Below, in pieces: positions 12,206 through 37,624 of a DNA stretch of 40,913 bases (position 1 is its first letter; each line of letters starts with the position of its first letter). A program made the translations under genes and the position numbers. The DNA comes from Bradyrhizobium jicamae (GTDB taxonomy: Bacteria > Pseudomonadota > Alphaproteobacteria > Rhizobiales > Xanthobacteraceae): NCBI RefSeq assembly GCF_001440395.1, contig NZ_LLXZ01000009.1:1-40913 (forward strand). The letters run 5' to 3'. The notes below the pieces were generated by a model. The model saw nothing but the letters and a program-made list of their open reading frames with translations, was not told the DNA's origin and ran no database searches.

Positions 12206-12333
12206 TTGTATTTGCTCCTAGCTTTGTAGCGAGGTGAAGTAGCGACCATCATGCGGGTGAGCTTGGCCCCGAGACATTTGTCCGTACACGCCGCGATCAC
12301 CGGAGATGTCAAAGCTACAGTTGCCCCGAAGTC

Positions 12334-13290: not shown

Positions 13291-13419
13291 CTCAGAGGCC
13301 CCCCTAGTTCGATACATCGGGAATGAGATGCCGTTTGTGCTTGCGCACGAACGAATGCCAATATCTTGAGCTTAAAGCACCGTTGGTGCGCCTCCACAAG
13401 TGCGGCTCCGGACGAGTCC

Positions 13420-18000: not shown

Positions 18001-18223
18001 GATTATCGACATCGGACGGTGGCGGCACGAACGCGTCCAAAGTCAACTTGCTCTTCGCTTCTCGGGACAGTTGCTGCTCGAAGGTGTGAACGACTTCTTG
18101 AACGTCTTCTTTGCTATGAGGGATCTGCAAGAGTCGAATGGCATCCGAATTTCCGAGCTCGCCGGCTGCGGCGAGCCTGGAGGCCTCGCGGATCATTCCG
18201 CTGCTACGAATCGTTGTGCCCAC
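15005..18223 (-). CDS. Three-domain fusion: acetoacetate-decarboxylase-like, DUF3237 and cytochrome P450
   Basis: A 1072-residue fusion. Residues about 50-260 resemble the acetoacetate decarboxylase beta-barrel (VVLNELQYYNGQMVHLYGEC, AAMFIVVAAVADN); the catalytic lysine could not be placed. Residues about 413-560 are a DUF3237 domain closely similar to that in the neighbouring gene. Residues about 590-1072 are a cytochrome P450: the K-helix ExxR is in ELFRVISP and the heme-ligand loop is FGFGYRRCAG with Cys1017 (codon at 15173-15175). The I-helix region lacks the usual Ala-Gly-x-x-Thr oxygen-activation motif, which suggests a peroxide-driven or isomerising P450 rather than a classic monooxygenase. 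It is the first gene of the minus-strand cluster that includes the encapsulin shell. I infer action on an isoprenoid or lipid. The start is not confirmed by a strong ribosome site. Confidence 0.82.
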   Translation of the reverse strand: MGTTIRSSGMIREASRLAAAGELGNSDAIRLLQIPHSKEDVQEVVHTFEQQLSREAKSKLTLDAFVPPPSDVDNQRYEPLFDKYIITGKTYTTTSGAVVLNELQYYNGQMVHLYGECSNVPLVNAALAGSGYRPMTLKYADGRQAAIAQLWSNKFTDTSIRPYAAMFIVVAAVADNAPESQASLRAASNGASSVLVMLDGSFDPATAVYENEARMYMFRLLDTTQVAIDVGRERMGTDKRPGIIDMACNGRRLHLSIKDQHRRGVVQGDLELATDPTAYGSVVAQAAKTAGITLQALPRGTECVYPAVARIGQGAVVCWQWRSDVAPLLQPVMPGSLLFDRSSEEGRTLLAWGFTPKVLGFFPKVRGVITGLSDQTQRYARDSSAACAGTANAGSRPRSRASGEAASPPSRLPWNTSFLGSLKVALRKDLVGPMSDGLRVNWHITEGTFVGPGHDAVVLPGAADWMHIRPDGIAIVNVRACFETRERVRVYGAYSGVADFGPDGYARALRDEYDRQIPAVVTPTYETADPRLEWLNRVQCIGVGRVDMTALRAEFDIYGVRVGERAQEASSAAAQSPIPEQIITAIERFRTAIPANFDPNYVEKVVIPFFLTNIYEGERPLLPMIDPNFSKENALPHDVFGLIYRDWKPTPEEGVMVFLQGLEKRGENNLRKRIYFSAVTPDLYKPMYRAKVTAFFDKLLDQKFADRPFMRHYLDHYFDLYWDLHLGLVGSDIPREVREIGEAFNTVFAYRDPLLPITYHNYMKVRELQDFLKSWIGERISDIQSGKTKNPERTMAWHWLKNAQDSGHFSKKDMVVECLHDFVALSQWGNAIFRVMSLLSEDGGDQAVRASFQKTMSGNFDTAGGAPFSPLELFVMELFRVISPNGGSVSTIHDARSSVHGGALQQKVGLPFERDSYVSTPHTSTSLDSIHWTDPNTFDPQRYLRVPTSAQINDDKCRQIGLARCPFDITSFKVKDGRNARIKNSGFGTLFVVADERSYPVCDYAGFAPFGFGYRRCAGERLTILVFEDFLRKVWRDKIVFRKLDLANPARVPVGLDAVIQDDIGFNRFPLR

Positions 18224-19597: not shown

Positions 19598-20773
19598 ATG
19601 CAAACGACACCCAGTGCCTCCGCCAGCGCCGCATACCTTCCGCGCGTCCCCCTCGTTCCTGAAGACGTCGCCCGCCGCAACAATGTATTCTTCGAAATCG
19701 ACACGCGCTTCCGCCGCGCCGCTCGCCTTCTTCAATGTCTGTGGTTGAAAGATCGAGGCATCCCCACCGGCCATCATGTTCGCGGTTACGGCGGCGACTC
19801 TGTAACCATGGAGCTTCATTCAACCCTCAGCCCCGACGCAGCCCGGGTCGGGCTCAATTTTCTTTCCCGAGAAATTCATACCTTCGTTCGTCGCGAGTTG
19901 CTGATGCGAGAGGAAGGCGCCGCCATCGACGAAGATCGCCTGCTTGGCAGCGCGCTTAGCTCCATGCCGCTGACCTTCAATATGTTCGGCCCCATGGCCC
20001 TCGACCTCAACCTCGCCACCGCCGTCCTGCGCCAGCTCCTGCCGGACTTCGTCCATCAGGTAACGGGTTTCATGTTCGAGCACTCACCCGGCCGCCGCCA
20101 GGAGCGCTTTCTGAACGACGGCACCGCCTTCGACCTCGCCATCCGCGTCATCACTCCGGATGGGGAAGAAGCCACGATTTTCGTTGAAGTGAAGTACTCC
20201 GAAGACATGGCCGGGCCCGCTGCCAGGCTCCGGGATCGCTACGATGAAGTTTCACGCGCCGTCGGCCTTTTCGTCGACCCGGACAGTCCGATGCTCCGCT
20301 CATTGGCGCTGGAGCAGCTTTGGCGTGAACATATGCTAGCCCAGTTGACCGTCGACCAAGGCCTCACCGCACGGGCCATGTTCATCACGATCGGCCCTCG
20401 CCTCAATCGCCGTGTCATGGCCGCCTTTCGTGTTTACGAAAATGAACTGATTGATGTCGACGACCAAGACCCCGACCGCGTCTCATTCCGGGCCTTTACG
20501 CTGGAACGCTTCATCGATGCCCTTGCGGAAGCCGGCGCCGATGGTCTCGCCCGTGACCTGTGGGGCCGCTATGCCGACTTCGAACGCGTCTACCACCTCG
20601 CTTTGGGCGAATATCTCGACGAGCCCTCAAACTACGCCCTCACGGCGCCGCTTGCTCCGCCTTCGTCCACAAGAGCAAAAGCGTCGCTCAAAGCGGCCAA
20701 AATCGCAATGACGGCAAAGCGAGCGACGAAAAGCAGAGAGCAGACGGTCAAGGGAGTATCCAGTGAAGGATGA
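19598..20773 (+). CDS. PD-(D/E)XK nuclease-superfamily protein
   Basis: A 391-residue protein whose central part has the spacing of a PD-(D/E)XK nuclease core: a likely first acidic residue in GTAFDLAIRVITPDG, then TIFVEVKYSED, where E-V-K is the (D/E)XK element (about residues 177-203). The fold fits the PGN_0703-type putative restriction endonucleases. The C-terminus is a basic lysine/alanine-rich tail. The downstream DUF2958 gene starts at a GTG inside its last codons (11-base overlap), so the two are translated together. In other genomes such pairs sit on plasmids and integrated elements. Function is inferred from motif shape only. Confidence 0.7.
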   Translation: MQTTPSASASAAYLPRVPLVPEDVARRNNVFFEIDTRFRRAARLLQCLWLKDRGIPTGHHVRGYGGDSVTMELHSTLSPDAARVGLNFLSREIHTFVRRELLMREEGAAIDEDRLLGSALSSMPLTFNMFGPMALDLNLATAVLRQLLPDFVHQVTGFMFEHSPGRRQERFLNDGTAFDLAIRVITPDGEEATIFVEVKYSEDMAGPAARLRDRYDEVSRAVGLFVDPDSPMLRSLALEQLWREHMLAQLTVDQGLTARAMFITIGPRLNRRVMAAFRVYENELIDVDDQDPDRVSFRAFTLERFIDALAEAGADGLARDLWGRYADFERVYHLALGEYLDEPSNYALTAPLAPPSSTRAKASLKAAKIAMTAKRATKSREQTVKGVSSEG

Positions 20774-23946: not shown

Positions 23947-24021
23947 CTTTTACTTTAAGTCCGAGCAGAGCCTAGAAAGTCCAGTTAGGCTAATAGCCTC
24001 AGGCTGTTAACAACTTTCGTC

Positions 24022-24041
24022 GTCCGACCAAGTCCGACCAA
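24022..24041 (+). repeat. Tandem 10-base repeat upstream of the integrase
   Basis: Two adjacent copies of gtccgaccaa. The position between the att core and the integrase start fits a recombination-directionality or integrase arm-binding site, but this is not shown. Confidence 0.5.
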
Positions 24042-24070
24042 ATCCCGCGAAATCCAAAAATTTTTGTGGT

Positions 24071-25252
24071 ATGGAATGTGGCATGAAGCCGGTCGGACGT
24101 CACCCCCAAAAAGCTTTAACTTCTGTTCGAGTGAACAGCTTAGCCGCCCCAGGCCGGTATGGCGACGGCAATGGCTTGTATCTCGTTGTCGATCCGTCCG
24201 GTGCTAAGCGCTGGGTGCTTCGGACGGTGGTGCAAGGTAAGCGCCGCGACATCGGTCTCGGTGGGCTGCGTTTGGTGTCTCTAGCTGAGGCTCGAGTCAA
24301 GGCACTTGAATATCGTCGGCTTGCAAGGGACGGCGGCAACCCGGTCGAAGCGAAACGTCGCGCCAAAGTCGTTCCGACGTTTGCTGATGCTGCGCGCTCC
24401 ACCCTTGAACAGCACCGTGGGGGCTGGAAAAATGAAAAGCACGCTTCAGCGTGGATCAACACCCTCACGACATACGTCTTCCCGATCATGGGCGAGAAGC
24501 GCGTTGACCAAATCGAAACGGCTGACGTCCTTCGCGCCTTATCCCCGATTTGGCTCTCCAAGCCAGAAACCGCCCGACGCATTCGTCGGCGCATAGCCAT
24601 CGTTCTCGACTGGTCGAAAGCGTCCGGGTTTCGAACCGGTGACAATCCAGTTGACAGTGTCAACAAGGGTCTTCCGCGTCAGTCCGAAAAGCGCGGTCAT
24701 TTCGCAGCGATGCCGTATTCTGAAGTGCCTGGGTTCGTCAAGAAGCTCCCCGAGGTGCCGACAAGTCAGTTTGCGCGTCTGGGTTTCGAATTTTTGATCC
24801 TTACGGCCGCAAGGACCAACGAGGTTTTAAGAGCCGATTGGACGGAGATTGACCTCGACAAAGCAATCTGGACGATCCCAGCCGCACGGATGAAGGTCGG
24901 TCGAGAGCACCGAGTTCCTCTGGCTAAGCGTTCCTTGGGCCTGCTGGAGACAGCTCGCGAGATTGGCGGCGATTCCGGGTTGATTTTTCCGGGCCGCCAG
25001 GTCGACGAGCCTATGTCCAATATGATTTTTTTGATGTTACTACGCCGACTGGGAGCAACCTTTACAGCTCACGGCTTCCGATCCGCGTTTCGTGACTGGG
25101 CTTCCGAATGCACAAACTTTCCGCGAGAAGTTTGTGAAATGGCGCTCGCGCATTCAATAAAGGACAAGACAGAGGCCGCTTATCGCCGCGGAGATCTCTT
25201 CGAAAAGCGTCGGCAACTAATGGAAGACTGGAACAATTTTCTATCCTCATAG
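24071..25252 (+). CDS. Tyrosine site-specific integrase (DUF4102 N-terminus, P4 type)
   Basis: A 393-residue phage-P4-type integrase. Residues about 15-100 are the DUF4102 arm-binding domain (AAPGRYGDGNGLYLVVDPSG). The catalytic domain has Arg248 in TAARTNEV, His334 and Arg337 in HGFRSAFRDW, His361 in LAHSIKDK and the nucleophile Tyr371 in EAAYRRGD, so it should be active. Family members integrate islands into tRNA genes, consistent with the tRNA-Ser fragment just upstream. The ATG at 24071 or an in-frame one at 24083 may be used. Its stop overlaps that of the convergent zinc-finger gene. Confidence 0.93.
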   Translation: MECGMKPVGRHPQKALTSVRVNSLAAPGRYGDGNGLYLVVDPSGAKRWVLRTVVQGKRRDIGLGGLRLVSLAEARVKALEYRRLARDGGNPVEAKRRAKVVPTFADAARSTLEQHRGGWKNEKHASAWINTLTTYVFPIMGEKRVDQIETADVLRALSPIWLSKPETARRIRRRIAIVLDWSKASGFRTGDNPVDSVNKGLPRQSEKRGHFAAMPYSEVPGFVKKLPEVPTSQFARLGFEFLILTAARTNEVLRADWTEIDLDKAIWTIPAARMKVGREHRVPLAKRSLGLLETAREIGGDSGLIFPGRQVDEPMSNMIFLMLLRRLGATFTAHGFRSAFRDWASECTNFPREVCEMALAHSIKDKTEAAYRRGDLFEKRRQLMEDWNNFLSS

Positions 25253-25951
25253 TCCTTTACGATTCGCTACTCTTCGCCTCGCGTTGTTATAGTCATCCTT
25301 GCACTTATCGCTGCAATACTTTGCGCCCGACTTTCTGCTGAACAAATTGTCGCAAGCGTCACATGCGAAAGTGTTTACCCCACGACTGATGCTGTCAAGC
25401 AATTGTAGTTTTAGCGCGTCAAGCAAGCACTTGGGTCGAAGGCTCATCCGAACGCCATCCACCGGATCTGCCTCGATATCCATCGCGCAAAGAGGCGATT
25501 TCACTCCCAATTCCTGAATCAGCGCTTGCAGCTGGGGCGACTTTTTTGCGTGATATCGCAAAATGTGAGCGCACCAAGCAGCTTCCTTCAAACATCGATC
25601 GATTTGATCTCCGGGCACATAAACAAACTCGGCCAATTTTCTTCCATTCATCAGCAAAACGCTGCTGGTGAAATGGGGCTTAGCCGACGAGCGCGTGAGC
25701 CCCTCGTCTGTCAACGGTCCGTAATGCCCCACAAATTCAAATAAAGCTTGCTCGCTTTTGACGTTAGCAAAGACCCGATAGAGATCGGGATATCTCTTGA
25801 GTGGATAATACTCGTCGCCGGATTCGGCAGTTGTAATTATCCGACGCCCAAATTCCCAACGCTTACCGTCGTCACCTGTAAACCCGCATGGCTCGACAAT
25901 TTCATAGTGGGAATGCCGAGTCCAAACAAACTCCAAAAGCCGATTAAACAC
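25247..25951 (-). CDS. Hypothetical protein with C-terminal CGNR-like zinc finger
   Basis: A 234-residue protein starting at a GTG, preceded by AGGAGC about 14 bases upstream. The first 180 residues match no family I know. Residues about 198-228 form a zinc-ribbon/CGNR-like finger: two cysteines in FACDACDNLF and two in GAKYCSDKCKDDY, followed by an arginine-rich ARRRVAN. Such fingers bind DNA in stress-type regulators. The gene converges on the integrase and their ends overlap by six bases, with no room for a terminator. It could be a regulator or defence protein of the integrated element. Confidence 0.75.
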   Translation of the reverse strand: MFNRLLEFVWTRHSHYEIVEPCGFTGDDGKRWEFGRRIITTAESGDEYYPLKRYPDLYRVFANVKSEQALFEFVGHYGPLTDEGLTRSSAKPHFTSSVLLMNGRKLAEFVYVPGDQIDRCLKEAAWCAHILRYHAKKSPQLQALIQELGVKSPLCAMDIEADPVDGVRMSLRPKCLLDALKLQLLDSISRGVNTFACDACDNLFSRKSGAKYCSDKCKDDYNNARRRVANRKGL

Positions 25952-26067
25952 GGATCACACGCTCCTAACACGGTTTGCCGTGTAGTTCCCCTGGGCATCA
26001 AGCGAACGAGTATGCGTCTCCATGCTTTCGAGCATGACACCGCAATTTCTTGACGTCGGAGGACTAC

Positions 26068-26328
26068 ATGAGCACTTCGCTGACCAAAATCAAAGAAGAC
26101 GCAGCGCCTACATCCAAGCTGCGCCGACTGATTTCTATCATCGGTCCGAACGGCCCGATACCGGTTTCCCGCTCCACTTGGTGGGCAGGAGTTAAGTCCG
26201 GTCGTTTTCCAGCGCCATTGTCCCTCGGGGGCCGCCTGACCGTCTGGCGAGACGAAGACATTCGTAAGCTGATCGAGGAGGGGATTCCGAGAGCCGGTTT
26301 GGCCACCAAGAGTGGGGACCGGTCATGA
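26068..26328 (+). CDS. AlpA-type helix-turn-helix regulator/excisionase
   Basis: An 86-residue protein with the MerR-like winged helix of AlpA/excisionase proteins: PVSRSTWWAGVKSGRFPAPL followed by GGRLTVWRDEDIRKLIEEG. The ATG at 26068 is chosen because GGAGG lies five bases upstream (26058-26062); a start six codons earlier lacks this. AlpA proteins activate integrase genes or assist excision. Its stop overlaps the start of the next gene by ATGA (26325-26328), so it is the first member of the DNA-modification operon and a candidate controller of it. Confidence 0.85.
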   Translation: MSTSLTKIKEDAAPTSKLRRLISIIGPNGPIPVSRSTWWAGVKSGRFPAPLSLGGRLTVWRDEDIRKLIEEGIPRAGLATKSGDRS

Positions 26329-27347
26329 TCTTCGCGAACAACGATGCCGCGGGGCAACCCCAGCGCACTGATGACGCTTTAGTGCAGGGCGGCACGGCTA
26401 TGGAATCACACTCGTACGTTACTGAGTCGGATGCAGTTGATGCCGCCGATCGGGTTGCTGATCATTGGGTCAACGCTGCGAAGTCCCTCGTTCAGGCTTG
26501 CGCGCTCCTTGTCCGGGGGCTGAATTTCTTTGCCAAAGACCCCGAGAAGCTCGATGTCTTCCTGGCGCGCTTAGTCGCCAAACGAGTGTTCTCTGAAAAT
26601 GATGTACTCGCGCGCCTAAAGGCCAATGGCAAGCTCGCGATGCTGGGAAAGATCGGTCGCAATGCCGAGACCCTCTTGCAACCGTCCGTTTTGTGCCTGT
26701 TGCCTGCGCATTACTCGATCATTTACCAGATCTGCCTCTTGGTCGAAGAGGTCGGCTGCGAGCGAGCAAAGGCCGAGCTGGCTGCATATTCCGATATAGC
26801 GCGCGAAGACGTGCTCAAGATGCGCGCCGCGTTAAAGGCGCCCGATACAACACCGGAACCTGTCGCGCCAGTAACGGTTGATGGTTTCGCGGCTCAGCTC
26901 TTCGCGGTCCGCTTTACGACGCAAAGCGTGCGGTCGTTCGCGAGCGACTATGCGAGCATCGACACGCTGGATCAATGTCTCCGCCGGCCTCAACCGGCTG
27001 ACAACGCGGGGCTGGTGGCGATTGTCCCTATACTGGCGCTTGGCACCTTCGAACGCGAGTTCATGCCGCTCCTGGGTTTTGACGGGCCCGACCACCTGTT
27101 TTTCGGCACCGCCCCGAACCAACCAGAAATCACCGATCTTGACGTCATCGTTGTCGCCAAACGCGGTGGTTTCCGACCTGAGCTTTTGACTGCCTTTCCG
27201 TCAGATGCAGGCAGCGTCCTCAAGCTGGCCGAGTTCTTTTTTCCTGGCTGCGACGTCAAGTGTCAGCTGTTCGCTGACGCACGAGCCAGCGGCTGGTCGA
27301 CGCTCATCGGCGACGAAAACTGGATCGAAAAGCCGAGCGTCCGATGA
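26325..27347 (+). CDS. Unknown protein of the proposed DNA carboxymethylation operon
   Basis: A 340-residue protein I do not recognise. Residues about 40-160 are helical (AADRVADHWVNAAKSLVQAC, HYSIIYQICLLVEEVG). After a proline-rich linker at about 170-180 comes an alpha/beta part with AIVPILALGTFEREFMPLLG and PEITDLDVIVVAKRGG, ending GWSTLIGDENWIEK. The D-L-D-V-I-V-V-x-K string slightly recalls a PD-(D/E)XK core, but the rest of that fold is not evident. It overlaps both neighbours by ATGA (26325-26328 and 27344-27347), so it is translated with the methyltransferase fusion. Candidate roles are a partner of the PP-loop domain, a target-recognition subunit or a cognate restriction factor. Confidence 0.85.
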   Translation: MIFANNDAAGQPQRTDDALVQGGTAMESHSYVTESDAVDAADRVADHWVNAAKSLVQACALLVRGLNFFAKDPEKLDVFLARLVAKRVFSENDVLARLKANGKLAMLGKIGRNAETLLQPSVLCLLPAHYSIIYQICLLVEEVGCERAKAELAAYSDIAREDVLKMRAALKAPDTTPEPVAPVTVDGFAAQLFAVRFTTQSVRSFASDYASIDTLDQCLRRPQPADNAGLVAIVPILALGTFEREFMPLLGFDGPDHLFFGTAPNQPEITDLDVIVVAKRGGFRPELLTAFPSDAGSVLKLAEFFFPGCDVKCQLFADARASGWSTLIGDENWIEKPSVR

Positions 27348-29419
27348 TTGAAAATCTGCGCAATATTCTCCGGGCCGAGGTTCTGGCGCGAAGCTCTGCC
27401 AGCCACGTCGGCCTTATGCTGTCTGGAGGTGCCGACAGCTTCGTGGTCGGTTTCGTCTGCGAGGAGGTCGGCAAGAAGGTTGTTGCCTATACATACGAAC
27501 TGGACGGGGTTCCCTCTTCTGAGCGTCCAGCCGCAGAAGCGATAGCCCGCCACATGGACTGGCCGCTTCGGGTCGTCCAAGTGCCAACCGCCGGTTTGAG
27601 GTCGGCTTTTCTGCGGTTGGCGATCGAACACGGCTGCTCAAAGAAGACCCAGTTCGAGGTCACGTATCCGATTGCGCACTTGATACCGGCCATCTTGGAG
27701 ACCGATATCTTTACCGGTTGGAATTTTGACGATCACTACGGCAACACCCGAGAAGATATCCTGGAAATCTCCAGGCTTAAGCGGGCGGGCTACTCCGACG
27801 CCGAACTCAAGGCCCACTTCGACGCCTCTCGTGCTGCAAAGTATGCCAGGTCCGATTCAATGAATTCTCCCGATACGTTCTGGTTCGCCAACCGAATTGC
27901 ATCGGCGCTTGGTAAGCGCCTGATCGATCCCTCCACGGCAAAATCGGTCCGCAAGTTCTTCCGTCGGTTTTCCCATGACGAGTTGTCGTCTATCGAAAAA
28001 CCCTTCATCCGGGAGATTTTCGCCGACGCTTTTGCTCGCCTTCCTTCGGGACTGATCGCCAAGGGCGTCAAGCTTCAGAAGGGCGGCGGAGTCCATAAGC
28101 TGTTTAGGACTCTAATCGACGATCCAGCGATCAATCGGTTCGAAAAGGCATACACGACGGTGAGCGCACTCTGCGAGCGTTGGGCCGCGGAAGTGCGCGA
28201 GAATCCAGATCAGTATCTGGAAGAACTGACCACGGTGCCGCCACTGCGGAAAGCCACCGTCATCGAAGCGCGAGGCACTAACGTTCGTCGCCCATCAATG
28301 GCCGACGTACGCAAGGCATCGCTGCGCAACTGTTTTACGGTGATTTCCCTGTTCGCGGGTGGCGGCGGGTCTTCGATGGGATATCGGTTGGCGGGCGGCA
28401 ACATCAGGGCAATCAATGAATTCGTCGCGGAAGCCGCTCGCAATTATTCGAAGAACTTCCCGGAAACGGTTGTCGATACCCGGGACATCCGAGACATCAT
28501 TCGCTATCCCGCGGACATCCTCGCCTTCCTGGCGTTGGTTGGCCTGGGCGCGGGCGAGCTGGACATACTGGACGGATCGCCACCCTGTTCCGAATTCAGT
28601 ACCGCCGGAAACGGACCGACCGAGCCCGGCATGCTGAAGGCGTACTCGGATCGGGCGCAAAAGGATATCTCGCTGCTTCCTTTTGAGTTCGCCAGATTCG
28701 CGCTGATCGCTCGGCCCAAAGTCATCGTGATGGAAAACGTCCCTGCTCTCGCCTCGCGCGGAAAGGCAATTTTCGAAAGCTTGCTCGGGATGTTGAGTAC
28801 AGAGTACGTGGTAACCTCGCGAGTGCTGTCCGCGAACGACTACGGCGTGCCGCAGAAGCGCCGTCGATTGTTCGTCCTTGGCATCAGGAAGGACGTCGCC
28901 GAAGTTGTCGGGGTCACGAGCGAGTTCGGAGCGTCGCTGCTTTTTCCGAATCCGACGCATACCGGCGTGACGATTCGAGACGCCTTCGCTGGGCTTGAGC
29001 AGTCGGCCGAAGACGTTCGCCCTTGGCTGACCTCCGCACAAATAACCACGATCGCGACAGCAGCCGCAAGGCTACCAAAGAATCCGCCTCGTCTGTTGCG
29101 TCCCAATCACATCGGTCAATCGGTCACACGCAACTATACGCTCACTAGGTGTTCCTTCGACCTCCCCGCACCGACGCTGACAGTCACGGGGCAACAGCCG
29201 AGTGGGCTAGCCGGCGCTATTCACCCTGAATACGACCGCAAGTTCACGATACCCGAACTCAAACGTCTAACCGGCCTGCCCGACGCTTTCGTGCTCACGG
29301 GCACACTTGGCCAAGCGGCCGAACGAATTTGCCGCATGGTGCCGCCATTTATCACCGAGGCGATCGCCGAAAGCATCTACCGGAAAATCCTACTTCCCTA
29401 CGCAAAGGCCAAGAAATGA
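27344..29419 (+). CDS. Asparagine-synthetase-like PP-loop domain fused to DNA cytosine-C5 methyltransferase, carboxy-SAM-type
   Basis: A 691-residue fusion. Residues 1 to about 300 are an asparagine-synthetase-type ATP pyrophosphatase domain: PP-loop SGGADS at 27-32 and TGWNFDDHYGN at about 127. It has no N-terminal glutamine amidotransferase. Residues about 333-691 are a complete cytosine-C5 methyltransferase: motif I FAGGGGSSMGYRLAG at 337-351, motif IV GSPPCSEFS with nucleophile Cys415, motif VI MENV, motif VIII PQKRRRLF and motif X near 660-670. Motif X reads RICRMVPP, where the family has I-G-N-x-V-P-P, so the conserved Asn is Arg664. An engineered basic residue at that Asn is known to let a C5 methyltransferase use carboxy-SAM. 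It overlaps both neighbours by ATGA. I infer that it writes 5-carboxymethylcytosine and then amidates it. Confidence 0.9.
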   Translation: MIENLRNILRAEVLARSSASHVGLMLSGGADSFVVGFVCEEVGKKVVAYTYELDGVPSSERPAAEAIARHMDWPLRVVQVPTAGLRSAFLRLAIEHGCSKKTQFEVTYPIAHLIPAILETDIFTGWNFDDHYGNTREDILEISRLKRAGYSDAELKAHFDASRAAKYARSDSMNSPDTFWFANRIASALGKRLIDPSTAKSVRKFFRRFSHDELSSIEKPFIREIFADAFARLPSGLIAKGVKLQKGGGVHKLFRTLIDDPAINRFEKAYTTVSALCERWAAEVRENPDQYLEELTTVPPLRKATVIEARGTNVRRPSMADVRKASLRNCFTVISLFAGGGGSSMGYRLAGGNIRAINEFVAEAARNYSKNFPETVVDTRDIRDIIRYPADILAFLALVGLGAGELDILDGSPPCSEFSTAGNGPTEPGMLKAYSDRAQKDISLLPFEFARFALIARPKVIVMENVPALASRGKAIFESLLGMLSTEYVVTSRVLSANDYGVPQKRRRLFVLGIRKDVAEVVGVTSEFGASLLFPNPTHTGVTIRDAFAGLEQSAEDVRPWLTSAQITTIATAAARLPKNPPRLLRPNHIGQSVTRNYTLTRCSFDLPAPTLTVTGQQPSGLAGAIHPEYDRKFTIPELKRLTGLPDAFVLTGTLGQAAERICRMVPPFITEAIAESIYRKILLPYAKAKK

Positions 29420-30102
29420 CCAAGCCCATTAGAGATTTCTCGTTTGGAGAACACGCCGTGACGTTTGATCGGCACATCAAAGATTCGATCCCGGGCTATG
29501 CCAATCTGGTTAGTCGGATTCTGCGGGACTCGCGGCGATTCGTTCAACCCCATACGACCGTGTATGACCTCGGCTGCTCTTCGGGCCGGACGTTGGCGAA
29601 AATCAGCCGCGTGAACAGTTCCTCGCGGAACGGCGTGAGGTACATCGGGATCGATTGCGAACCGGGCTTTGAGCCGCTGTGGCGCAAACGTCGAGCGTCG
29701 GGCCTGCGGTTCGAAACCGGGGATGCGCGCGTATTGCCGCTGGAGAACGCTTCTCTAATCATAGGCCAGTTCATCGTGCAGTTCATTCCGCCGATGGACA
29801 AACGAGCTTTGCTGCGCCGCATCCATGATAGTCTGGTTGAAGGGGGCGCGTTCATGATCGCGGAGAAAACTTTGGCCGAGACACCAAGGCTGCAAGACGC
29901 TGTGACTTTTTCCTACTATGATTACAAATTGGAGCGCGGCTTTACGGCCGAGCAGATCCTCGTCAAGGAACGCCAGCTGCGCGGACAGATGACCTGCATG
30001 AGTGAGGCCGAACTGCGAGGGGCCCTTAGGGAAGCGGGATTTACCGAGATGGAAAGGATTTGGGGTGAAGCACCATTCGCCGCATTTCTGGCGCTAAAAT
30101 AA
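29416..30102 (+). CDS. CmoA-family carboxy-S-adenosyl-L-methionine synthase homologue
   Basis: A 228-residue class I SAM-binding protein that aligns over nearly its whole length with E. coli CmoA (247 aa) as I remember it. Shared segments are IPGYANL (about 25-31; CmoA VPGYSNI), RFVQPHTTVYDLGCSSG (41-57; CmoA RFVQPGTQVYDLGCSLG), FIVQFIPP (CmoA FTLQFLEP), EGGAFMIAEK (CmoA PGGALVLSEK) and a C-terminal part from DYKLERGF to EAGF that aligns without gaps. CmoA converts SAM and prephenate to carboxy-SAM, used by CmoB on tRNA. No cmoB-like gene is here. The ATG at 29416 overlaps the methyltransferase stop (ATGA), so the cofactor synthase is coupled to the DNA enzyme. Confidence 0.9.
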   Translation: MTKPIRDFSFGEHAVTFDRHIKDSIPGYANLVSRILRDSRRFVQPHTTVYDLGCSSGRTLAKISRVNSSSRNGVRYIGIDCEPGFEPLWRKRRASGLRFETGDARVLPLENASLIIGQFIVQFIPPMDKRALLRRIHDSLVEGGAFMIAEKTLAETPRLQDAVTFSYYDYKLERGFTAEQILVKERQLRGQMTCMSEAELRGALREAGFTEMERIWGEAPFAAFLALK

Positions 30103-30114
30103 GGGCCCGCGGTT

Positions 30115-30157
30115 GACAATAGCCTCATTCCAAAGAGGCTTCCCGTAGGAAATTGTC
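30115..30157 (+). terminator. Candidate hairpin after the modification operon
   Basis: A perfect 6-base stem agcctc/gaggct (30121-30126 with 30135-30140) is nested inside an outer pairing gacaat/attgtc (30115-30120 with 30152-30157). It starts 13 bases after the last stop. There is no U-tract, so it may be a processing or weak termination hairpin. Confidence 0.4.
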
Positions 30158-30629
30158 CGCCATGCGTACGATTTTTACTCGGTAAAACCCTCAATTTCCC
30201 TGCTGGTTTGTGGCATCGCCAGATTGAGTCATCGGTACAAGCAAGCAGTGTTAGCTTTCAGATTCCAACGAAAAACTCTTGGTCGCCAGCGTTCTCCTTG
30301 AGGGGGATCCTAAATCGGCTACCCCCACCCCGCGATGCAGATCGATTCAAATCTGACGTAAGCGGCCTTCCCCGGCTGCCTTATTGCGAACGTCGTAAGC
30401 ATCCACTGCGCAATCGTCGACTCATCCTAGATCTACGCAATATTCTGACGATCGACGGCATAAGGCGGCGCAACAGTCGCTATTCTACAACCGGCGACAG
30501 AGATCCTCTCGCCAACGCTGACGAGAAGCAAGAACCAGCAACGAAAAGCTGATGCGTTTTCGCGTGCGTCTCGAATAGCGGCTCTATCGAACGTCGATAG
30601 GGTGTTGATTGGTCATGAGGAGAAATCAA
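30158..30629. other. Intergenic region with one repeat copy
   Basis: About 470 bases holding the first 54-base repeat (30273-30326) and no recognisable gene. The ribosome site of the CoiA-like pseudogene (gaggag) lies at its right end. Confidence 0.4.
30273..30326 (+). repeat. 54-base direct repeat, copy 1
   Basis: Begins aaactcttggtcgc and ends ggctaccccc. It matches 32070-32123 with few mismatches in the same orientation. The core has a run of G and a run of C about 15 bases apart that could form a short hairpin. Confidence 0.8.
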
Positions 30630-31412
30630 ATGAAATTTGCCGCTGTTGATGGAATGCGTCGCGAGGCGCAGCGTGGGTTGCTGGGCGGATGTCCAGATTG
30701 TGGAGCTATCGTAATCGCAAAGTGCGGCCATGTCAGAGTACCGCATTGAGCCCATCAAGGAATTCGTACCTGCGATCCTTGGTGGGAACCCGAGACGGAA
30801 TGGCATCGCACTTGGAAAAACTGCTTCCCCGAGGATTGGCAGGAAATCAGTCATACCTCGATAACTGGTGAAATCCATCGCGCCGACGTAAAAACCGAGA
30901 AGGGCTTAGTGCTGGAATTTCAGCACTCCATTCTGAATCAGGACGAGCGGGAGTCACGAGAACGATTTTATCCGAAGAATGGTCTGGGTCATCCACCGTC
31001 TAAGACGTGAGCGCAGGATAAGGCGCGATTCTTTGCGACGCTTCGCGGACCGCTAGGCGTCTACTCCAAACTTCCTATGTATTCCAGTCTACGAAGCGAG
31101 AGTGCCCTCTTGCGCGACTGGGGCGCTAGCCGCGTACCGGTTTACTTCGATTTTGGTTGTGACGAGGCGGACGATACTCCGCAACTCAACAAGAGCGCAC
31201 TCTGGCGACTCAACCCGGATGCTAGTGGTGGACGAGCCTCGGCGTACCTTTCTCCCGTAGCGAGAGCGGAGTTTCTGAGCGCTCACCTTGATGGATTGGA
31301 TTTCGAAGAGATGTTCAAGCAGGTGATAGAGCGCGATTTGAGTTACTACGCTCGACTCCAAGTCGCCAGGCCCCGGATACACGGTCCATATGATCGGCGT
31401 CCCCGTTTTTAG
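30630..31412 (+). pseudogene. Degraded CoiA-like competence protein gene
   Basis: Starts at an ATG with a good GAGGAG site (MKFAAVDGMRREAQRGLL, then GGCPDCGAIVIAK with a zinc-ribbon CxxC). One extra A near 30720 shifts the frame. In the next frame a TGA at 30748-30750 stands where Trp is expected. The core then reads ETEWHRTWKNCFPEDWQE, GEIHRADVKTEKGLVLEFQH and ERESRERFY, the CoiA signature including the nuclease-like H-R-A-D-V and E-F-Q-H. Further shifts near 30970 and 31015 lead to a last remnant ending at 31412. At least three lesions make it nonfunctional. Family members act in DNA uptake or processing. Confidence 0.8.
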
Positions 31413-32258
31413 CACTGCTGCAAATCGAGCGTTTGATCTACGATATTGGTGAGAGGCTATGATTGTATCACCTCTCCCCCTCACTTCGTTCGGGTGAGCG
31501 CCCTTCGGCGTAGTTGGGATTTTGTCTGAACGGGATGCCTCGTGTGCGGAAGCAATCATCAACAAGATACGTGCGGCTGCGGCTGAAGACATCACTTTGC
31601 TATCCAGCAAAATGATCCGTGCGTATTACGGCTTTCGGTATCACCGGATCAGAAGAACCACTATCGTGGTCGGGACCGGCAGTGCGGTGAGTCCCTGTTT
31701 ACCTTCTGCTTGTCTACGCAGGGTCTCGGCAAGACCGATCCGACGATCATGCCACCCTTGACGGTTTAAAGCTTTTCCATCTCTCGCCAGGCTTAGTTTA
31801 GCGACCGTGCCTGCTTTGGTCGTTCATTGTCCAAGAAATTCCATCCATGTCACAATGACCGGATGCTCCGACCAGTGTCTCAGCCCACCGGGATTTCCAC
31901 GCGTACTCACCTGTTCGGAAGGGCGTGGGGCGCTGTCATGGGTGCGCCGATACTGAGATGTAGAATATTTAGGGTAGTTTCCGGCACAACTCGGATGGGC
32001 GCCAAGCTTTTATTTCGACGCGTCGAATCCTCATCGGACATGCCAAGAGTGTCTTTTAGGAGCCGACGCAAACTCTTGGTCGCGGGCGTTCTCCTTGAGG
32101 GGGTCCCTAAATCGGCTACCCCCGGGCCTCGTTCGGTGCCGACGGCCCATTATTAAGATTTTCACGGCCAATCATATTGATGTCTGCTCACTGCGTACGA
32201 GACGTCGGCCGAGCATTCGCCTGACTTCCGCAAATGACCTTCCGGACTTTGGCTGCAG
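31413..32258. other. Non-coding stretch with second repeat copy
   Basis: About 850 bases with short frames on both strands that do not resemble proteins. It contains the second 54-base repeat at 32070-32123. Probably decayed DNA. Confidence 0.4.
32070..32123 (+). repeat. 54-base direct repeat, copy 2
   Basis: Partner of 30273-30326, same orientation and 1.8 kb apart, flanking the CoiA-like pseudogene. It may be a dispersed intergenic repeat or recombination scar. Confidence 0.8.
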
Positions 32259-32726
32259 CTACGAACAAGTCCCGCAAGGCGAGCGGCGTCCTTTTGAAGT
32301 GCTGGGCACCTCTACACGCCTCTTCGAGAGGTCATCAAGGATCACGCATTCGGGTCCCGGGCCGCCCGCACATGATGCGTCGCAGCTCGCGACGAAGGCT
32401 GCGATACTGCGCTCCAATGCCTTGAGTTCTGCCAGCTTAGCCCGCACCGCGATCAAGTGCTCCTGTGCAAGGTCGCGGGCATGAACGCAGGACTGTGTGG
32501 GGTCCTGCATCAACTCCACCAGTGAACGCACCTGCTCGATCGAGAAGCCAAACTCGCGGCAGCGGCGGATAAAGGTCAGCCGTTTCACGTCGGCATCGCT
32601 ATAGACGCGCTGACCACCGGCCTGACGGTCGGCCGACCGCAACAATCCAATTTCCTCATAATAACGGATCGTAGGGGCGTTGGTGCCGGTTCGTTTCGCG
32701 AGCGCGCCGATCTTCAGGCCGTCCAT
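32259..32726 (-). CDS. MerR-family metal-responsive regulator
   Basis: A 155-residue MerR-type regulator. The N-terminal winged helix reads LKIGALAKRTGTNAPTIRYY then EEIGLL, followed by the dimerisation helix and a C-terminal metal loop with cysteines in QSCVHARDL and ASCDASCAGGPGPEC. This layout fits thiophilic metal sensors (Hg, Pb, Cd or Zn). The ATG at 32724-32726 is chosen because the helix-turn-helix begins there; the frame is open upstream. It is divergent from the MerT-like gene, with a MerR-type promoter between them. Metal identity cannot be settled from sequence. Confidence 0.88.
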   Translation of the reverse strand: MDGLKIGALAKRTGTNAPTIRYYEEIGLLRSADRQAGGQRVYSDADVKRLTFIRRCREFGFSIEQVRSLVELMQDPTQSCVHARDLAQEHLIAVRAKLAELKALERSIAAFVASCDASCAGGPGPECVILDDLSKRRVEVPSTSKGRRSPCGTCS

Positions 32727-32755
32727 CGTATTGATTTCTCTGCAAATCTTTTCGC

Positions 32756-32786
32756 TTGAACCTCTAGTTACTTGAGGAGGTACGGT
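32756..32786 (+). promoter_or_regulatory. MerR-type promoter with 19-base spacer and operator dyad
   Basis: The -35 element ttgaac (32756-32761) and -10 element tacggt (32781-32786) are separated by 19 bases, the overlong spacing typical of MerR-activated promoters. The spacer holds the dyad cctc-tagttactt-gagg. It reads towards the MerT-like gene. Confidence 0.75.
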
Positions 32787-32829
32787 TAGTGCAAGCTTGG
32801 TTCTAATCACCTTCTGGAGAGATTCTTCC

Positions 32830-33552
32830 ATGTCGATCGCTGAGGCCACCCCTATCGCCTGCACACTAGCGCCTGGAGCGTACGAAGACCGCCTCGCCTG
32901 GATCGCCGCCTTGAACAAAGACGCGCTCCGCAGTCACGAGCGCCACGATCTCGTGTTGGAATTGCACTACGCGATCGAAGCGCGCGCTCGGGTGCATGAG
33001 ATGGTTCGCAATGAGCAAAGCTGCTGCGCTTTCCTTACGTTCGAGTTGCAAGAATCGCGTAATGACATCTGCCTTACCATCACCGCGCCCGAAGCAGCAT
33101 GGGAAGCCGCGGACGCCCTATTTGAACAATTTGTGGCTAAAGCGCCCATAGTCTCTTCTTCATGCTCGTGCGACACGTCGACCTCGGCGGCGAAGATGCC
33201 TGCGGAGGAGCTGCCCGGGTCGAAGGCTGCTAGCGTCACGGCGGTGACGCTTTCAACCGGCGCGGTAGCTTGCGGGGTATGCTGCGTCTTGCCCTTTGCA
33301 CTGCCGGCAACCGTGCTCGCCAGCACCGGAACTTTGTTGGCGTGGTTCGTCAGCATGCATCTGTGGGTGACCGTGCTTGCCTTTCTCTCCGTCGCCGGCG
33401 CATGGGGGTGGATTGCTTGGCAATCGCGCCACACGCGGCGTAGACCGGCCGCGTCAACGCTCGTGATGATGGCGGGATCAACAGTGCTATTGACGGTCGC
33501 AGTGTTGTGGCCGCTGATTGAGAAATCCCTCATCAGCGTGCTGCGGGCGTGA
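32830..33552 (+). CDS. Mercury-resistance-type membrane protein with cytoplasmic metal-binding-like domain
   Basis: A 240-residue protein with a GGAGAG ribosome site (32816-32821) before the ATG. Residues 1-110 form a soluble domain with RLAWIAALNKDALRSHERHD and a Cys-Cys pair in EQSCCAFLTFEL. The C-terminal part has three likely membrane helices; the first contains ACGVCCVLPFALP, resembling the Cys-Cys-Val-Leu-Pro motif of MerT helix 1. MerT-type proteins pass Hg(II) across the inner membrane to mercuric reductase. The gene is under the MerR-type promoter, which supports metal-induced expression. No merA or merP is in the window, so a different thiophilic metal remains possible. Confidence 0.65.
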   Translation: MSIAEATPIACTLAPGAYEDRLAWIAALNKDALRSHERHDLVLELHYAIEARARVHEMVRNEQSCCAFLTFELQESRNDICLTITAPEAAWEAADALFEQFVAKAPIVSSSCSCDTSTSAAKMPAEELPGSKAASVTAVTLSTGAVACGVCCVLPFALPATVLASTGTLLAWFVSMHLWVTVLAFLSVAGAWGWIAWQSRHTRRRPAASTLVMMAGSTVLLTVAVLWPLIEKSLISVLRA

Positions 33553-33570
33553 CCGCGCATCAATTTAATC

Positions 33571-33590
33571 CGCTGCCTTGAGCGGCAGCG
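33571..33590 (+). terminator. Candidate hairpin between the MerT-like gene and ynfA
   Basis: A 7-base perfect stem cgctgcc/ggcagcg with a 6-base loop, 18 bases after the upstream stop. No U-run follows, so it may attenuate rather than terminate. Confidence 0.4.
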
Positions 33591-33614
33591 AATGCTGTGA
33601 CACTGTCCTCTCCC

Positions 33615-33938
33615 ATGAAAACTGTTGTCGTCTATGTTGGCGTGGCGATCGCCGAAATCGCCGGTTGCTTTGCGTTCTGGGGGTGGTTGCGTCTTGGCAA
33701 GCCGATGTGGTGGCTGCTTCCAGGCCTGTTTTCTCTCATCGTGTTTGCTTACCTGTTGACATTCGTCGAGACCGAGGCGGCGGGCCGCGCCTATGCCACC
33801 TACGGCGGCATCTACATTGTCGCGTCACTTTTTTGGCTCTGGATAATCGAGAGCGTGCGTCCGGATCGCTGGGACATTGCCGGCGCTTCAGTGTGCCTAA
33901 TTGGCGCGGCCATCATTCTTTGGGGTCCGCGTGGGTAA
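33615..33938 (+). CDS. ynfA: YnfA/UPF0060 small membrane protein
   Basis: A 107-residue protein with four membrane helices matching E. coli YnfA (108 aa) in length and pattern: [18 protein letters not shown] near the start, [18 protein letters not shown], the hallmark [18 protein letters not shown], and a C-terminal GAAIILWG. YnfA is related to small-multidrug-resistance transporters. The ATG at 33615 gives the family length; an in-frame GTG at 33597 is less likely. It follows the MerT-like gene on the same strand after 62 bases with a hairpin between. Confidence 0.9.
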
Positions 33939-34015
33939 TAAATGTCGCCTAGTGGCCCTTCTCAGACATCTGGGTAAACTGAGCGTATGTCCGCTTTCGC
34001 AGCAAGGGCAGACAA

Positions 34016-34600
34016 CTAGACCAGCTCCACGACTTTCAGCTGCGCCTCCGGATTTGGCTCGATGTATCGTTGCGTGGTCCTGAGGTTCGAATGCCCAGCA
34101 AGCATCTGGACATCACGGAGGGATCCGCCAACGGTGGAGATTTTTCTAGCGCTATTGGTGATGAAGGTCCGGCGTCCGCTGTGACTGGAGCATCCGTCGA
34201 AGCCGATGTCGTGATACCATCGCCAGAATAGGTTCACGATGGCCTGAGCCGACATGCTGTCGGAGCGCTCGCTTTCGATCAGAAAACGGTTGCTCACGAT
34301 TACGGTCGTCTTGGAATATTCGCCGAGAGCTGTCCGAAGCTCATCGCTCATCGGTATCACGCGACCCGACCGGCCTTTGCTGGCCACGTTCTCCAGATAA
34401 ATGGCTTGGCCGATCTCGCCCCTGGCATCCGTGACCATCCTCCAGGTCAGGCTGGCTATCTCCTTGGCCCTTAGTCCGGCCTTTGCTGAGAGCAGGAAGA
34501 TAACCTGGTTTCGGGTCGGCCATCTGGTCTTGGCCAAGTAACCCAGGACAGCCTCGACTTGGCCCTTCGTTAACGTCTTGGCTTGCTTCCCCAATCCCAT
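34016..34600 (-). CDS. Small tyrosine recombinase
   Basis: A 194-residue recombinase consisting essentially of the catalytic domain. It has the first arginine in KAGLRAKEIASLTW, the H-x-x-R box in SSHSGRRTFITN, the second histidine and nucleophile tyrosine in LAGHSNLRTTQRYIEP. It lacks the N-terminal core-binding domain of XerC/D. The ATG at 34598-34600 has GGAGG five bases upstream (34606-34610); a TTG four codons earlier overlaps that site and is rejected. Similar small recombinases occur on plasmids and islands and may act as resolvases or invertases. Its substrate site was not found. Confidence 0.88.
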   Translation of the reverse strand: MGLGKQAKTLTKGQVEAVLGYLAKTRWPTRNQVIFLLSAKAGLRAKEIASLTWRMVTDARGEIGQAIYLENVASKGRSGRVIPMSDELRTALGEYSKTTVIVSNRFLIESERSDSMSAQAIVNLFWRWYHDIGFDGCSSHSGRRTFITNSARKISTVGGSLRDVQMLAGHSNLRTTQRYIEPNPEAQLKVVELV

Positions 34601-34612
34601 GTCGTCCTCCAA

Positions 34613-34949
34613 ACCGATTATTTATCGGCATCAGGACGCTGGAATGTAATCAGTCAGGAGTGGTCGTACATGCCGACTGGAAAATAGTGGTTGGAAGTCC
34701 AATGGCTTGGACGGACTGATTATAGAAGAGTAATTCCATCATCAGTGTTGAGTGAAAGCAGATGCAGACGAACATTGTCGATTGATAGCGAAATGGCGCA
34801 CTTCGACGAATTGCCCTCATGATGCTGTTACCGTGCGTTTTGGAAATCGTGGATCGGTGCTGCCGGGCCACCACCAAAGGGGTTTCGCAAGGCATTGGCC
34901 AGCGTTCTTGACGCCTTCCGCTGGGCTAGGAAGCTCGGTAAGGTAGGCC
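34613..34949. other. Intergenic region upstream of the defence genes
   Basis: About 340 bases between divergent genes. Presumably it contains promoters for the recombinase and the nuclease-type gene. No convincing boxes or genes were seen. Confidence 0.4.
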
Positions 34950-36461
34950 ATGCCGAAAATCACACGCACGATTGGTCCGTTTCATTTCGAGGACTTGGAC
35001 CCCAAACGCTTCGAGGATCTGATCCGCGCACTTGCGAATGATTTTAAGGACTGGCAATCGATTGAGGCAACGGGACGAAGTGGTTCTGATGACGGTATTG
35101 ATGTTCGCGGTTATGAGCGGATAGCAAAACCGGCTGAGTCAGATATTCTCGATGAAGACGAGGAGAGCGATCCAGCCCTGCATCCGATGCAGGGAAACAC
35201 GTGGATATTTCAATGCAAGCGCGAGAAGGAAATTGGACCTAAGCGAGTAAGTGCAATCCTCGCCGAAGTTGACGAGAACGATCCGCCATACGGATTTATC
35301 CTAGCGGCGCCAGCCAATTTTTCGAAAGCGTCGTACGATACTTTTCGGTTCGATCTCGTAAAAAAAGGAGTGATGGAGTTCTACCTTTGGGGAAGGGCGG
35401 AGCTTGAAGGAATGCTCCTGCTGCCGAAGAATGACCGGGTACTTTTTACCTTCTTCGGCATCTCTCTCGTCTCCCGACGCCGCTCGCGGTCAACAGAGAT
35501 TAGAGGAAAAGTTGTCAATAAGAACAAGCTGCTGCGAATCATGGGCGAAGGCAAGGGGCATTGGCCGGTGCTCTTGCGCGACACGAATGACGAACACTAT
35601 CCGTTTGAGGAGCAATATCCAGATTTCAATAAGAATCCTCGCTGGAAACGGTTCGAGGCGAGGCGCATCCATCCGCAAGGGCTCATCGTGAGGCATCAGC
35701 ACTGGTACGCCTACCTGGATGTCGACAAAAAGGAGTTCGACTTCACCGTGAAGGTGTCCTTGATTCAGCCTCATCATGTTGACGATGACGACTGGACGGC
35801 TCGTCAGAAGGAGGGGGAGCTCCGTGACGCGATAGAAGATTTCTGGGATCATCTCCCCAATCGCAACAAGGCTGAATATTGCAAAAATTCTCTTGTAAGA
35901 TTTGAGGACATGCTTGTGATCGACGAGAAGGGGATCACCCCGGACCGATGTCCACATATCTTCGTCGACTTTCAAAATCACAAGGGGCCGTTTTCCGGCT
36001 CACACGATTTTCTCGAAGTACGCCACGGCTACAGCGAGCCGGAACGGATTTCGCTAAAAGAGTTTAAGCGTATCAAAGTTTTTCCAGAAGAATTTTCGAC
36101 GCCGACAATTGGGACAGTTCATGTTGACGGCGTAGTTCAACTAGATTCCGATACTCATCGTCTCCTTGTCAACGGAAACGAGGGCATCAGGGAGATTTGC
36201 GTCATGGATGGAAGATATACATTTCTCAAAGAGCGCGACGTTTTCATGCTCAAAAGCGCGCGCGACAATTCTCTCAAGTATTTCCAGGTCACGCATGTGA
36301 AAAGCACGACCGTAGGCGAACATTTTGCAGGTGCCGATCGGGAATTTCGCAAAGAACAACTGGAGCGACGGCTTGATAAGGAGCTAGTCGACTCTGACGT
36401 GATTAACGTGTTTGAGTTCAAGCAGACTTACGATTGGCGAATCGAGCGGTACAAGGGGTAG
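34950..36461 (+). CDS. Mrr-like restriction endonuclease-fold protein
   Basis: A 503-residue protein. The first 150 residues look like an Mrr-type PD-(D/E)XK domain: FEDLIRALANDFKDWQSIEA, then GRSGSDDGIDVRGY with the catalytic-type Asp51, and WIFQCKREKEI with the Gln-x-Lys element (Gln88, Lys90). Mrr-fold enzymes cut modified or foreign DNA. The remaining 350 residues are a mixed alpha/beta region with many charged and aromatic residues and no known motif; they may recognise a target. It precedes the SIR2 gene by about 160 bases on the same strand. I infer a defence role; it is not a recognised typed system. Confidence 0.8.
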   Translation: MPKITRTIGPFHFEDLDPKRFEDLIRALANDFKDWQSIEATGRSGSDDGIDVRGYERIAKPAESDILDEDEESDPALHPMQGNTWIFQCKREKEIGPKRVSAILAEVDENDPPYGFILAAPANFSKASYDTFRFDLVKKGVMEFYLWGRAELEGMLLLPKNDRVLFTFFGISLVSRRRSRSTEIRGKVVNKNKLLRIMGEGKGHWPVLLRDTNDEHYPFEEQYPDFNKNPRWKRFEARRIHPQGLIVRHQHWYAYLDVDKKEFDFTVKVSLIQPHHVDDDDWTARQKEGELRDAIEDFWDHLPNRNKAEYCKNSLVRFEDMLVIDEKGITPDRCPHIFVDFQNHKGPFSGSHDFLEVRHGYSEPERISLKEFKRIKVFPEEFSTPTIGTVHVDGVVQLDSDTHRLLVNGNEGIREICVMDGRYTFLKERDVFMLKSARDNSLKYFQVTHVKSTTVGEHFAGADREFRKEQLERRLDKELVDSDVINVFEFKQTYDWRIERYKG

Positions 36462-36619: not shown

Positions 36620-37624
36620 ATGAGCGACGGAATTCCGCTCATTCCTGTTATCCCGCAGGCCTTGCGCGAAGCGGCGCATCGCGGAACGCTGATTCCGTTC
36701 GTTGGCGCAGGAGCGTCAAGGCTTGCCGGATGCCCGACCTGGGCGCAGTTAGCCGATGGCGCCTTGATGGCTTGCATCACGGCCAACAAATTCAATCATG
36801 GGCAAATGGAGCAGATTAGACACCTCTCTCCGCGCATGAAGCTGTCAATTGCGCGCGCTATTGAATCAGAGCATGCGCTGACGATTGATTACGAGAAGCT
36901 GATCAATCCCTTCGATGGATATCAAAACAATGCAGTCGGACACCGCGTCTACCGCAGCCTTGGCAAGCTTAGCAAAACATTCGTCACGACCAATTACGAC
37001 GCTTGGCTAGACACTGAAATACTTGACCCTCCTTTATCAGTGAGCACCGATAGCCCGGTTCAAGACACTGTTGCCACGCCCCGTGTGCGACGCCGGATTG
37101 CGAATGTCGAGGACTTCACCCCGGCTAACCTCAACCAGGAGAATTGCGTTTTCCACATCCACGGCTCCTTGGTCGATCCCGCCGGCATGGTCATGACCAC
37201 GCGAGACTATATCCGACGGTACGCAAACGATCGAGGTAGCGACGACCCGACCCGCGAAAACCGAACGCTGACGTTCCTTGAGGTACTATTTCAGCATAAG
37301 ACCGTCCTTTTTGTCGGTTATGGGTTGGAAGATCTGGAAATCCTCGAGTACGTGATTCAGAAGGCTCGGCAGCAGTTTCCGTCGGAACGGCCGCAAGCCC
37401 GGCACTTCATGCTGCAGGGCTATTTCGCTCACGAGTATGAATTAATGCGGAGCCTTACGCAGTACTATGCGCAATGCGATATCGAATTGATCCCGTTTCG
37501 GCGTGATCAGCGCGATTGGGGGCAGCTAACGGAAGTGCTTGAGGCGTTTGCAGAGGCGATGCCGGCCAGAGCTCCGCTGGAGCTACAAGTGCAAATGGAG
37601 ATGGAGAGCTACCTTGAGCCCTAG
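36620..37624 (+). CDS. SIR2-like NAD-binding defence protein
   Basis: A 334-residue SIR2_2-type protein. It has the NAD-binding loop FVGAGASRLAGCPTW (about 27-41), TTNYDAW with the catalytic-type Asn (about 122-128), FHIHGSLVD with the catalytic-type His (about 182-190) and VLFVGYGLEDLEI (about 231-243). In prokaryotic defence systems such domains deplete NAD when phage is sensed. The sequence is a stand-alone SIR2 domain with a short C-terminal tail, and the large helical partner starts within its last codons. Together they resemble a split version of single-chain SIR2 defence proteins. The start has only a weak ribosome site. Confidence 0.9.
   Translation: MSDGIPLIPVIPQALREAAHRGTLIPFVGAGASRLAGCPTWAQLADGALMACITANKFNHGQMEQIRHLSPRMKLSIARAIESEHALTIDYEKLINPFDGYQNNAVGHRVYRSLGKLSKTFVTTNYDAWLDTEILDPPLSVSTDSPVQDTVATPRVRRRIANVEDFTPANLNQENCVFHIHGSLVDPAGMVMTTRDYIRRYANDRGSDDPTRENRTLTFLEVLFQHKTVLFVGYGLEDLEILEYVIQKARQQFPSERPQARHFMLQGYFAHEYELMRSLTQYYAQCDIELIPFRRDQRDWGQLTEVLEAFAEAMPARAPLELQVQMEMESYLEP

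Follow-up and report, generated by a model that had tools for sequence, protein, structure and literature searches.

What would a tightly packed bacterial operon make when it joins a CmoA-like protein, a DNA cytosine-C5 methyltransferase-like domain and an asparagine-synthetase-like PP-loop domain? This question is raised by positions 26050-30102 (+ strand) of the window, which is an entire contig (C9, 40,913 bases) of the Bradyrhizobium jicamae genome (8.73 Mb, 235 contigs). Judged from sequence, the intact four-gene operon lies on an integrase-bearing Bradyrhizobium element and probably encodes a predicted two-step DNA hypermodification, whose product would be an amide of carboxymethylcytosine. 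A first-pass annotation of this DNA had proposed that carboxy-S-adenosylmethionine (carboxy-SAM) is used to write 5-carboxymethylcytosine, that the new group is amidated to CH2-CONH2 and that no such natural system had been described. This interpretation is supported in part: the carboxy-SAM and 5-carboxymethylcytosine steps are well supported, the CH2-CONH2 product is the weakest step, and the pathway itself is already published. We name the parts after the CmoA-CmoX-CmoY system of Synechococcus phage S-B43 (Yang et al. 2025, PMC12783734; PDB 8YF3), whose proteins are called SpCmoA, SpCmoX and SpCmoY below.

As claimed before, the three open reading frames (ORFs) of 26325-30102 are open and intact, with the boundaries assigned to them. 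The description as three coupled genes needs correction. The CmoA-type, methyltransferase and PP-loop parts are all present, but the last two form a single protein of 691 amino acids (aa), and the third gene of the span encodes a 340-aa protein that had been left uninterpreted. We refer to it as the partner. ATGA overlaps are found at all three junctions (26325, 27344 and 29416), and because of the one at 26325 the AlpA-like gene is placed in the same operon. Three-part co-occurrence elsewhere, which the first-pass annotation had suggested looking for, is observed: the fusion and CmoA occur in G192 (locus L093), a genome of the same genus, and in a Hyphomicrobiales metagenome-assembled genome (locus L007). 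In G857 (locus L103) an unfused CmoX occurs with CmoA. The four genes, all on the + strand, and the two halves of the fusion are as follows.

26050-26328, + strand: AlpA-like regulator, the operon's first gene (PF05930, 21.5 bits, cut-off 21; matches in G192 and L007)
26325-27347, + strand: 340-aa partner, no known family, N-terminal half helical
27344-29419, + strand: fused CmoY-CmoX protein, 691 aa (PF00733 at aa 9-96, PF00145 at aa 331-679)
27344-28243, + strand: CmoY-like PP-loop (AMP-forming amide ligase) half (PF00733; 31% identity to SpCmoY)
28334-29380, + strand: CmoX-like C5-carboxymethyltransferase half (PF00145, aa 331-679; best match 8yf3)
29416-30102, + strand: CmoA-like putative carboxy-SAM synthase, 228 aa (4gek, 1.9e-28; TIGR00740, 120.5 bits)

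Two features of the CmoX half are central to its predicted chemistry.

28577-28588, + strand: catalytic SPPC motif, aa 412-415, with Cys415 aligned with Cys98 of SpCmoX
29333-29335, + strand: codon of Arg664, which corresponds to Arg350, the carboxylate binder in SpCmoX

The basic residue noticed earlier at the cofactor-carboxylate site is thus Arg664. All six named residues, Cys415 and Arg664 included, are identical between the window and SpCmoX, and the protein carries both motifs used as criteria in PMC12783734. SpCmoX (PDB 8YF3) is also the closest solved structure, ahead of 5-methylcytosine methyltransferases. A search with the fusion returned 839 proteins at E <= 1e-3, the query included and plain methyltransferases too, and 120 listed rows were examined. 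Among these matches listed, position 664 is Arg in all 115 rows having a residue there, where 5-methylcytosine enzymes have Asn, and Cys415 is conserved in 119 of 120. The cmoA gene adjoins the CmoX half through the ATGA overlap, and it is also present in the L007, G192 and G857 loci. The same association is observed in viruses. At least 80 viral loci were scanned and 44 scored (27 Arg, 17 Asn), the other 36 being excluded because cmoX was not matched at 1e-20 or the site was without a residue. With near-duplicates kept, cmoA accompanies 26 of the 27 Arg loci and 0 of the 17 Asn loci (Fisher p 2.6e-11). In the sole Arg locus without cmoA (L015) the contig ends 130 bases past the match. One locus counts against a strict rule linking Arg and cmoA: the methyltransferase of L014 (1495-3600) has Asn yet lies inside the CmoX clade on a long branch, with no cmoA on its short contig. 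It is possibly a return to methylation, or the long branch is misplaced. Arg-type cmoX and cmoA also lie beside a ParB-domain gene on an Azospirillum plasmid (L005) and beside phage capsid genes on a Thermobispora plasmid (L006). M.MpeI N374K, engineered to produce 5-carboxymethylcytosine, is a C5-methyltransferase in which the corresponding cofactor-side position is likewise basic, but it lacks the dedicated CmoA and the ligase half that the window has (PMC12783734). Taken together, the residues, the match to a solved structure and the enzymes published for the phage make the carboxy-SAM supply and the 5-carboxymethylcytosine step well supported, and the CmoX half is a predicted C5-carboxymethyltransferase with 5-carboxymethylcytosine as its product.

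The CmoA-like protein is 36% identical over its whole length to SpCmoA, which was shown to be active (PMC12783734), and 49% identical to the L007 copy. It matches PHROG 4752 at 1.2e-46. The TIGR00740 cut-off of 193.3 bits is reached neither by the window protein nor by active SpCmoA (115.6 bits); the protein is therefore filed as a phage-type CmoA-like protein and not as a TIGR00740 equivalog. Carboxy-SAM synthesis is a well supported prediction for it. One residue of Escherichia coli CmoA, Arg199, we take to be a carboxylate binder for carboxy-SAM. Alignments place Glu there both in the window protein and in SpCmoA, so this position is uninformative. The E. coli CmoA/CmoB tRNA pathway shares the CmoA homology, but the acceptor predicted here is DNA, and no CmoB over the cut-off is found in the host genome (best 47.4 of 275 bits); among 14 control genomes one has a CmoB over the cut-off. 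A role of this CmoA as a tRNA-pathway gene was rejected on this ground, and the island CmoA most likely serves CmoX. The host carries a second CmoA-like gene (L002, G000 C33, 1501-2286, - strand), 32% identical to the island copy. Between the window and L093, CmoA is 50% identical and the adjacent fusion 79%, which suggests faster change or exchange of cmoA.

The fusion is more than a chance arrangement. Its AlphaFold2 model has a pLDDT of 89.6, and comparison with the same-genus copy in G192 gives a nonsynonymous divergence (dN) of 0.13 against a synonymous divergence (dS) of 1.20, a pattern of purifying selection. In a tree of 71 hand-picked rows built with a quick method, all fusions group in a single clade (support 100), which lies within the Arg-type CmoX proteins. 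Two homologues, P0003 (87%) and P0005 (83%), have an identical longest contig of 7,358,571 bases, which suggests two copies in one genome. Two motifs of the ligase half are relevant here.

27422-27439, + strand: PP-loop motif SGGADS, aa 27-32, with conserved S27, G29 and D31
27716-27751, + strand: acceptor-side loop GWNFDDHYGNTR, aa 125-136, where SpCmoY has GIGADGYYGVSK

Among the 120 matches listed, S27 is present in 112, G29 in 113 and D31 in 113. The half has the PP-loop SGGxDS next to the CmoX half and no glutaminase domain, and SpCmoY likewise lacks one. The fusion starts at the PP-loop, and no gene of the operon encodes a glutaminase. The ligase half alone has no match among PDB sequences. 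In the acceptor loop the window has TGWNFDDHYGN where SpCmoY has SGIGADGYYGV, and its loop is thus not that of this glycine ligase. N127 is found in 115 and D129 in 120 of the matches listed, whereas none of 11 ligases from phages or viruses has an equivalent of Asn127, one being gapped at the site (weak viral hits L032 and L049 excluded; 9 fusion rows shown besides the window and L007). We read the altered loop as a changed amine pocket, and on the loop alone the amine may differ from glycine.

Could the enzyme be an ordinary 5-methylcytosine methyltransferase, with the PP-loop half and CmoA as mere passengers? Its annotations are generic (DNA_methylase, dcm), and the fusion family is known from sequence alone. 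However, the invariant Arg in place of Asn, the association of this Arg with cmoA, the ATGA coupling of the genes, and the single clade of fusions with a conserved PP-loop all argue otherwise, and we consider this explanation highly improbable. The identity of the amine is a closer question. Following the same carboxymethylation, free ammonia might be used to give 5-carbamoylmethylcytosine, the product of the first-pass annotation. The asparagine-synthetase-like domain (PF00733) fits this, as does an acceptor loop unlike that of the glycine ligase, and ammonia was predicted as the substrate of another ligase cluster (PMC12783734). But that cluster, A0A7T0Q3R0, which resembles the window in having an asparagine-synthetase-like PP-loop near CmoX and CmoA, differs from it by a glutaminase domain, and a viral neighbour in L011, the one locus used from the listing of viral neighbours, has the look of such a glutaminase-bearing ligase (N-terminal letters MCGIIG). 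Furthermore, SpCmoY, the sole characterised ligase without a glutaminase part, couples glycine (PMC12783734). Since the proven glutaminase-free enzyme uses glycine and the ammonia prediction is tied to a glutaminase cluster, CH2-CONH2 is not the simplest reading, and we find the ammonia product unlikely. Amide formation on the CH2-COO group is likely, while CH2-CONH2 as its outcome is the weakest step of the earlier scheme. The ligase half is predicted to be CmoY-like, and its product is best written as an amide whose amine is left unspecified.

The chemistry itself is that of the published phage pathway, and the finding is thus not categorically new. 5-Carboxymethylcytosine was deemed an unnatural base until its report in a phage in December 2025. 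The earlier statement that no natural system was described could hold at most for the final amide. In both S-B43 and the window, CmoA-like, CmoX-like and glutaminase-free CmoY-like functions are adjacent, and the six named residues agree, among them the Arg that binds carboxy-SAM and the Cys of SPPC. The differences are also clear. S-B43 has a lytic-type phage genome with separate cmoY and cmoX genes in the order A-Y-X, whereas the window has a bacterial element with one fused protein in the order partner-YX-A, adds AlpA and the 340-aa partner, and has an altered ligase loop. The words Bradyrhizobium, prophage, integrase and bacterial chromosome do not occur in the accessible text of the phage report. 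A search of open-licence PMC literature, preprints left aside, for 5-carboxymethylcytosine or CmoX DNA modification gave nothing else relevant by title. The form seen here, which is cellular, carried on an element and fused, and which has a new partner and an altered ligase loop, is not described in that part of PMC12783734.

The partner has no match in Pfam, PHROGs, PADLOC, NCBIfam or PDB sequences. Its C-terminal half is possibly MT-A70-like, as a weak fold match suggests, and the catalytic [DNS]PP[WFY] motif of MT-A70 is found in 0 of 29 partner rows. The L007 homologue has a weak PHROG match to an excisionase or regulator (0.0054). A 308-aa protein between cmoA and cmoX in G857 gave an hhalign probability of 0.2% against the partner, and homology was rejected. 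Neither the partner nor the fusion is found in any of the viral loci scanned.

The element is delimited by comparison with G192. Nucleotide homology occurs in blocks from 24020 to 34676, covering the integrase, the fusion, a 330-base stretch and a second recombinase; for AlpA, the partner and CmoA the proteins match. The integrase is 75% and the second recombinase 69% identical in G192. Besides the operon it contains the following.

24071-25252, + strand: 393-aa tyrosine integrase at the conserved element's left end (PF13356, PF22022, PF00589)
25247-25951, - strand: 234-aa protein with a zinc-ribbon-like C-terminal end (weak PF09889; weak HNH PHROG matches)
31571-31901, no strand assigned: conserved stretch, identical to G192 at 79% of bases and without an Rfam family
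34016-34612, - strand: second recombinase of the tyrosine type, 198 aa, at the right end of the element common to the window and G192 (PF00589)

In L007 the order is integrase, AlpA-like stretch (8186-8302), partner homologue (26%), fusion (49%) and CmoA, followed by a recombinase unrelated to the second one of the window. L007 and G192 have in common 297-aa and 128-aa proteins without a window match. In G857 (alphaproteobacterial chromosome, 5987-9377) cmoA, the 308-aa gene, an unfused Arg-type cmoX and a 200-aa gene are found with integrase, T5orf172 and HNH genes nearby; in the tree this CmoX branches as the sister of the fusions. The 234-aa protein has no match in L093, L107, L007 or L103 and is probably outside the system. 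When the left edge was compared with stretches of the right side in the window, L093 and L007, no exact direct repeat reached 14 bases, and no Rfam family is found in 24000-34700 up to E 0.5. The occurrence of the fusion system is sporadic. A genome-contig scan with two narrow peptide patterns gave four loci, one of them a fusion. Tallies by genome are lower bounds, with the best 2 to 7 candidates scored in each: within the genus, at least 2 of the 265 genomes have the fusion, and at least 1 of 397 drawn from the order, that one being the window's. In a draw of 385 genomes from the class two match, the window's genome with the fusion and G857 with the unfused CmoX and CmoA.

What would the mark be for? 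By analogy with the characterised phage enzymes, carboxy-SAM would come from CmoA and be used by the CmoX half to carboxymethylate C5 of cytosine, after which the PP-loop half would adenylate the new carboxylate and likely couple an amine to give the amide. From gene order and the weak fold match alone, the partner might recruit or aim the fusion on DNA. In a restriction-modification arrangement the mark would label self, and an island nuclease (Mrr-like, 34950-36461, or PDDEXK, 19598-20773) would cut unmarked DNA. Nuclease-like genes and a Dsr1-like pair do lie less than 10 kb away, HNH and T5orf172 genes are near the G857 CmoX, and a Schlafen AlbA_2 gene is inside the G192 element. Restriction genes also accompany other hypermodification islands of bacteria, Dpd among them, which speaks for this arrangement as well. 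But the four candidate proteins of the window all lie outside 24020-34676 and have no match in the G192, L007 or G857 loci, and the nuclease-like genes of these loci match neither the window nor one another. Searching both ways, we found no nuclease-like gene common to these four loci. The nearby nucleases and the Dsr1-like pair were rejected as parts of the system for want of counterparts at the compared loci, and a restriction-modification system seems quite unlikely to us. Reported HhaI resistance (PMC12783734) together with the lack of a recurrent nuclease argues for an orphan protective mark. It would shield element and host DNA from restriction as the element moves, which is the most likely use and the least certain step of the scheme.

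A bolder proposal is that bacteria too write an amide-hypermodified carboxymethylcytosine, through a fused CmoY-CmoX whose amine is neither glycine nor ammonia and which is aimed by a dead MT-A70-like partner. This would be the first cellular DNA hypermodification that uses carboxy-SAM, and we offer it tentatively, as doubtful in its full form. The operon would bring the carboxymethylcytosine chemistry into cellular organisms: soil bacteria would carry it on mobile elements, a single polypeptide would perform both steps, and the amine might be new. The fusion would offer a compact enzyme for putting amides on DNA, and with the operon the role of such marks in a bacterium becomes directly testable. 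Phages and bacteria would each have such a system, as is the case for 7-deazaguanine in DNA. The Dpd islands are likewise island-borne DNA hypermodification systems related to a tRNA pathway and common to phages. They differ in base and chemistry, and their restriction genes have no recurrent counterpart at the loci compared here.

Other parts of the window contain further genes of note. Outside the conserved element, 19598-20773 encodes a PDDEXK_13 / REase-ARP nuclease, and beside the Mrr-like gene a Dsr1-like SIR2 defence protein is split over two ORFs, 36620-37624 and 37539-40439, which overlap and are read in different frames. A - strand cluster at 8220-18223 looks like an encapsulin-linked terpene locus. 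It combines a protein resembling encapsulin (12334-13317) with a fusion of polyprenyl synthetase and amine oxidase (8220-11186), and also includes DUF3237 proteins and a match to P450. At 3203-6607 a 1134-aa protein combines a SAM domain, a guanylate/adenylate cyclase domain, an AAA ATPase and tetratricopeptide repeats.
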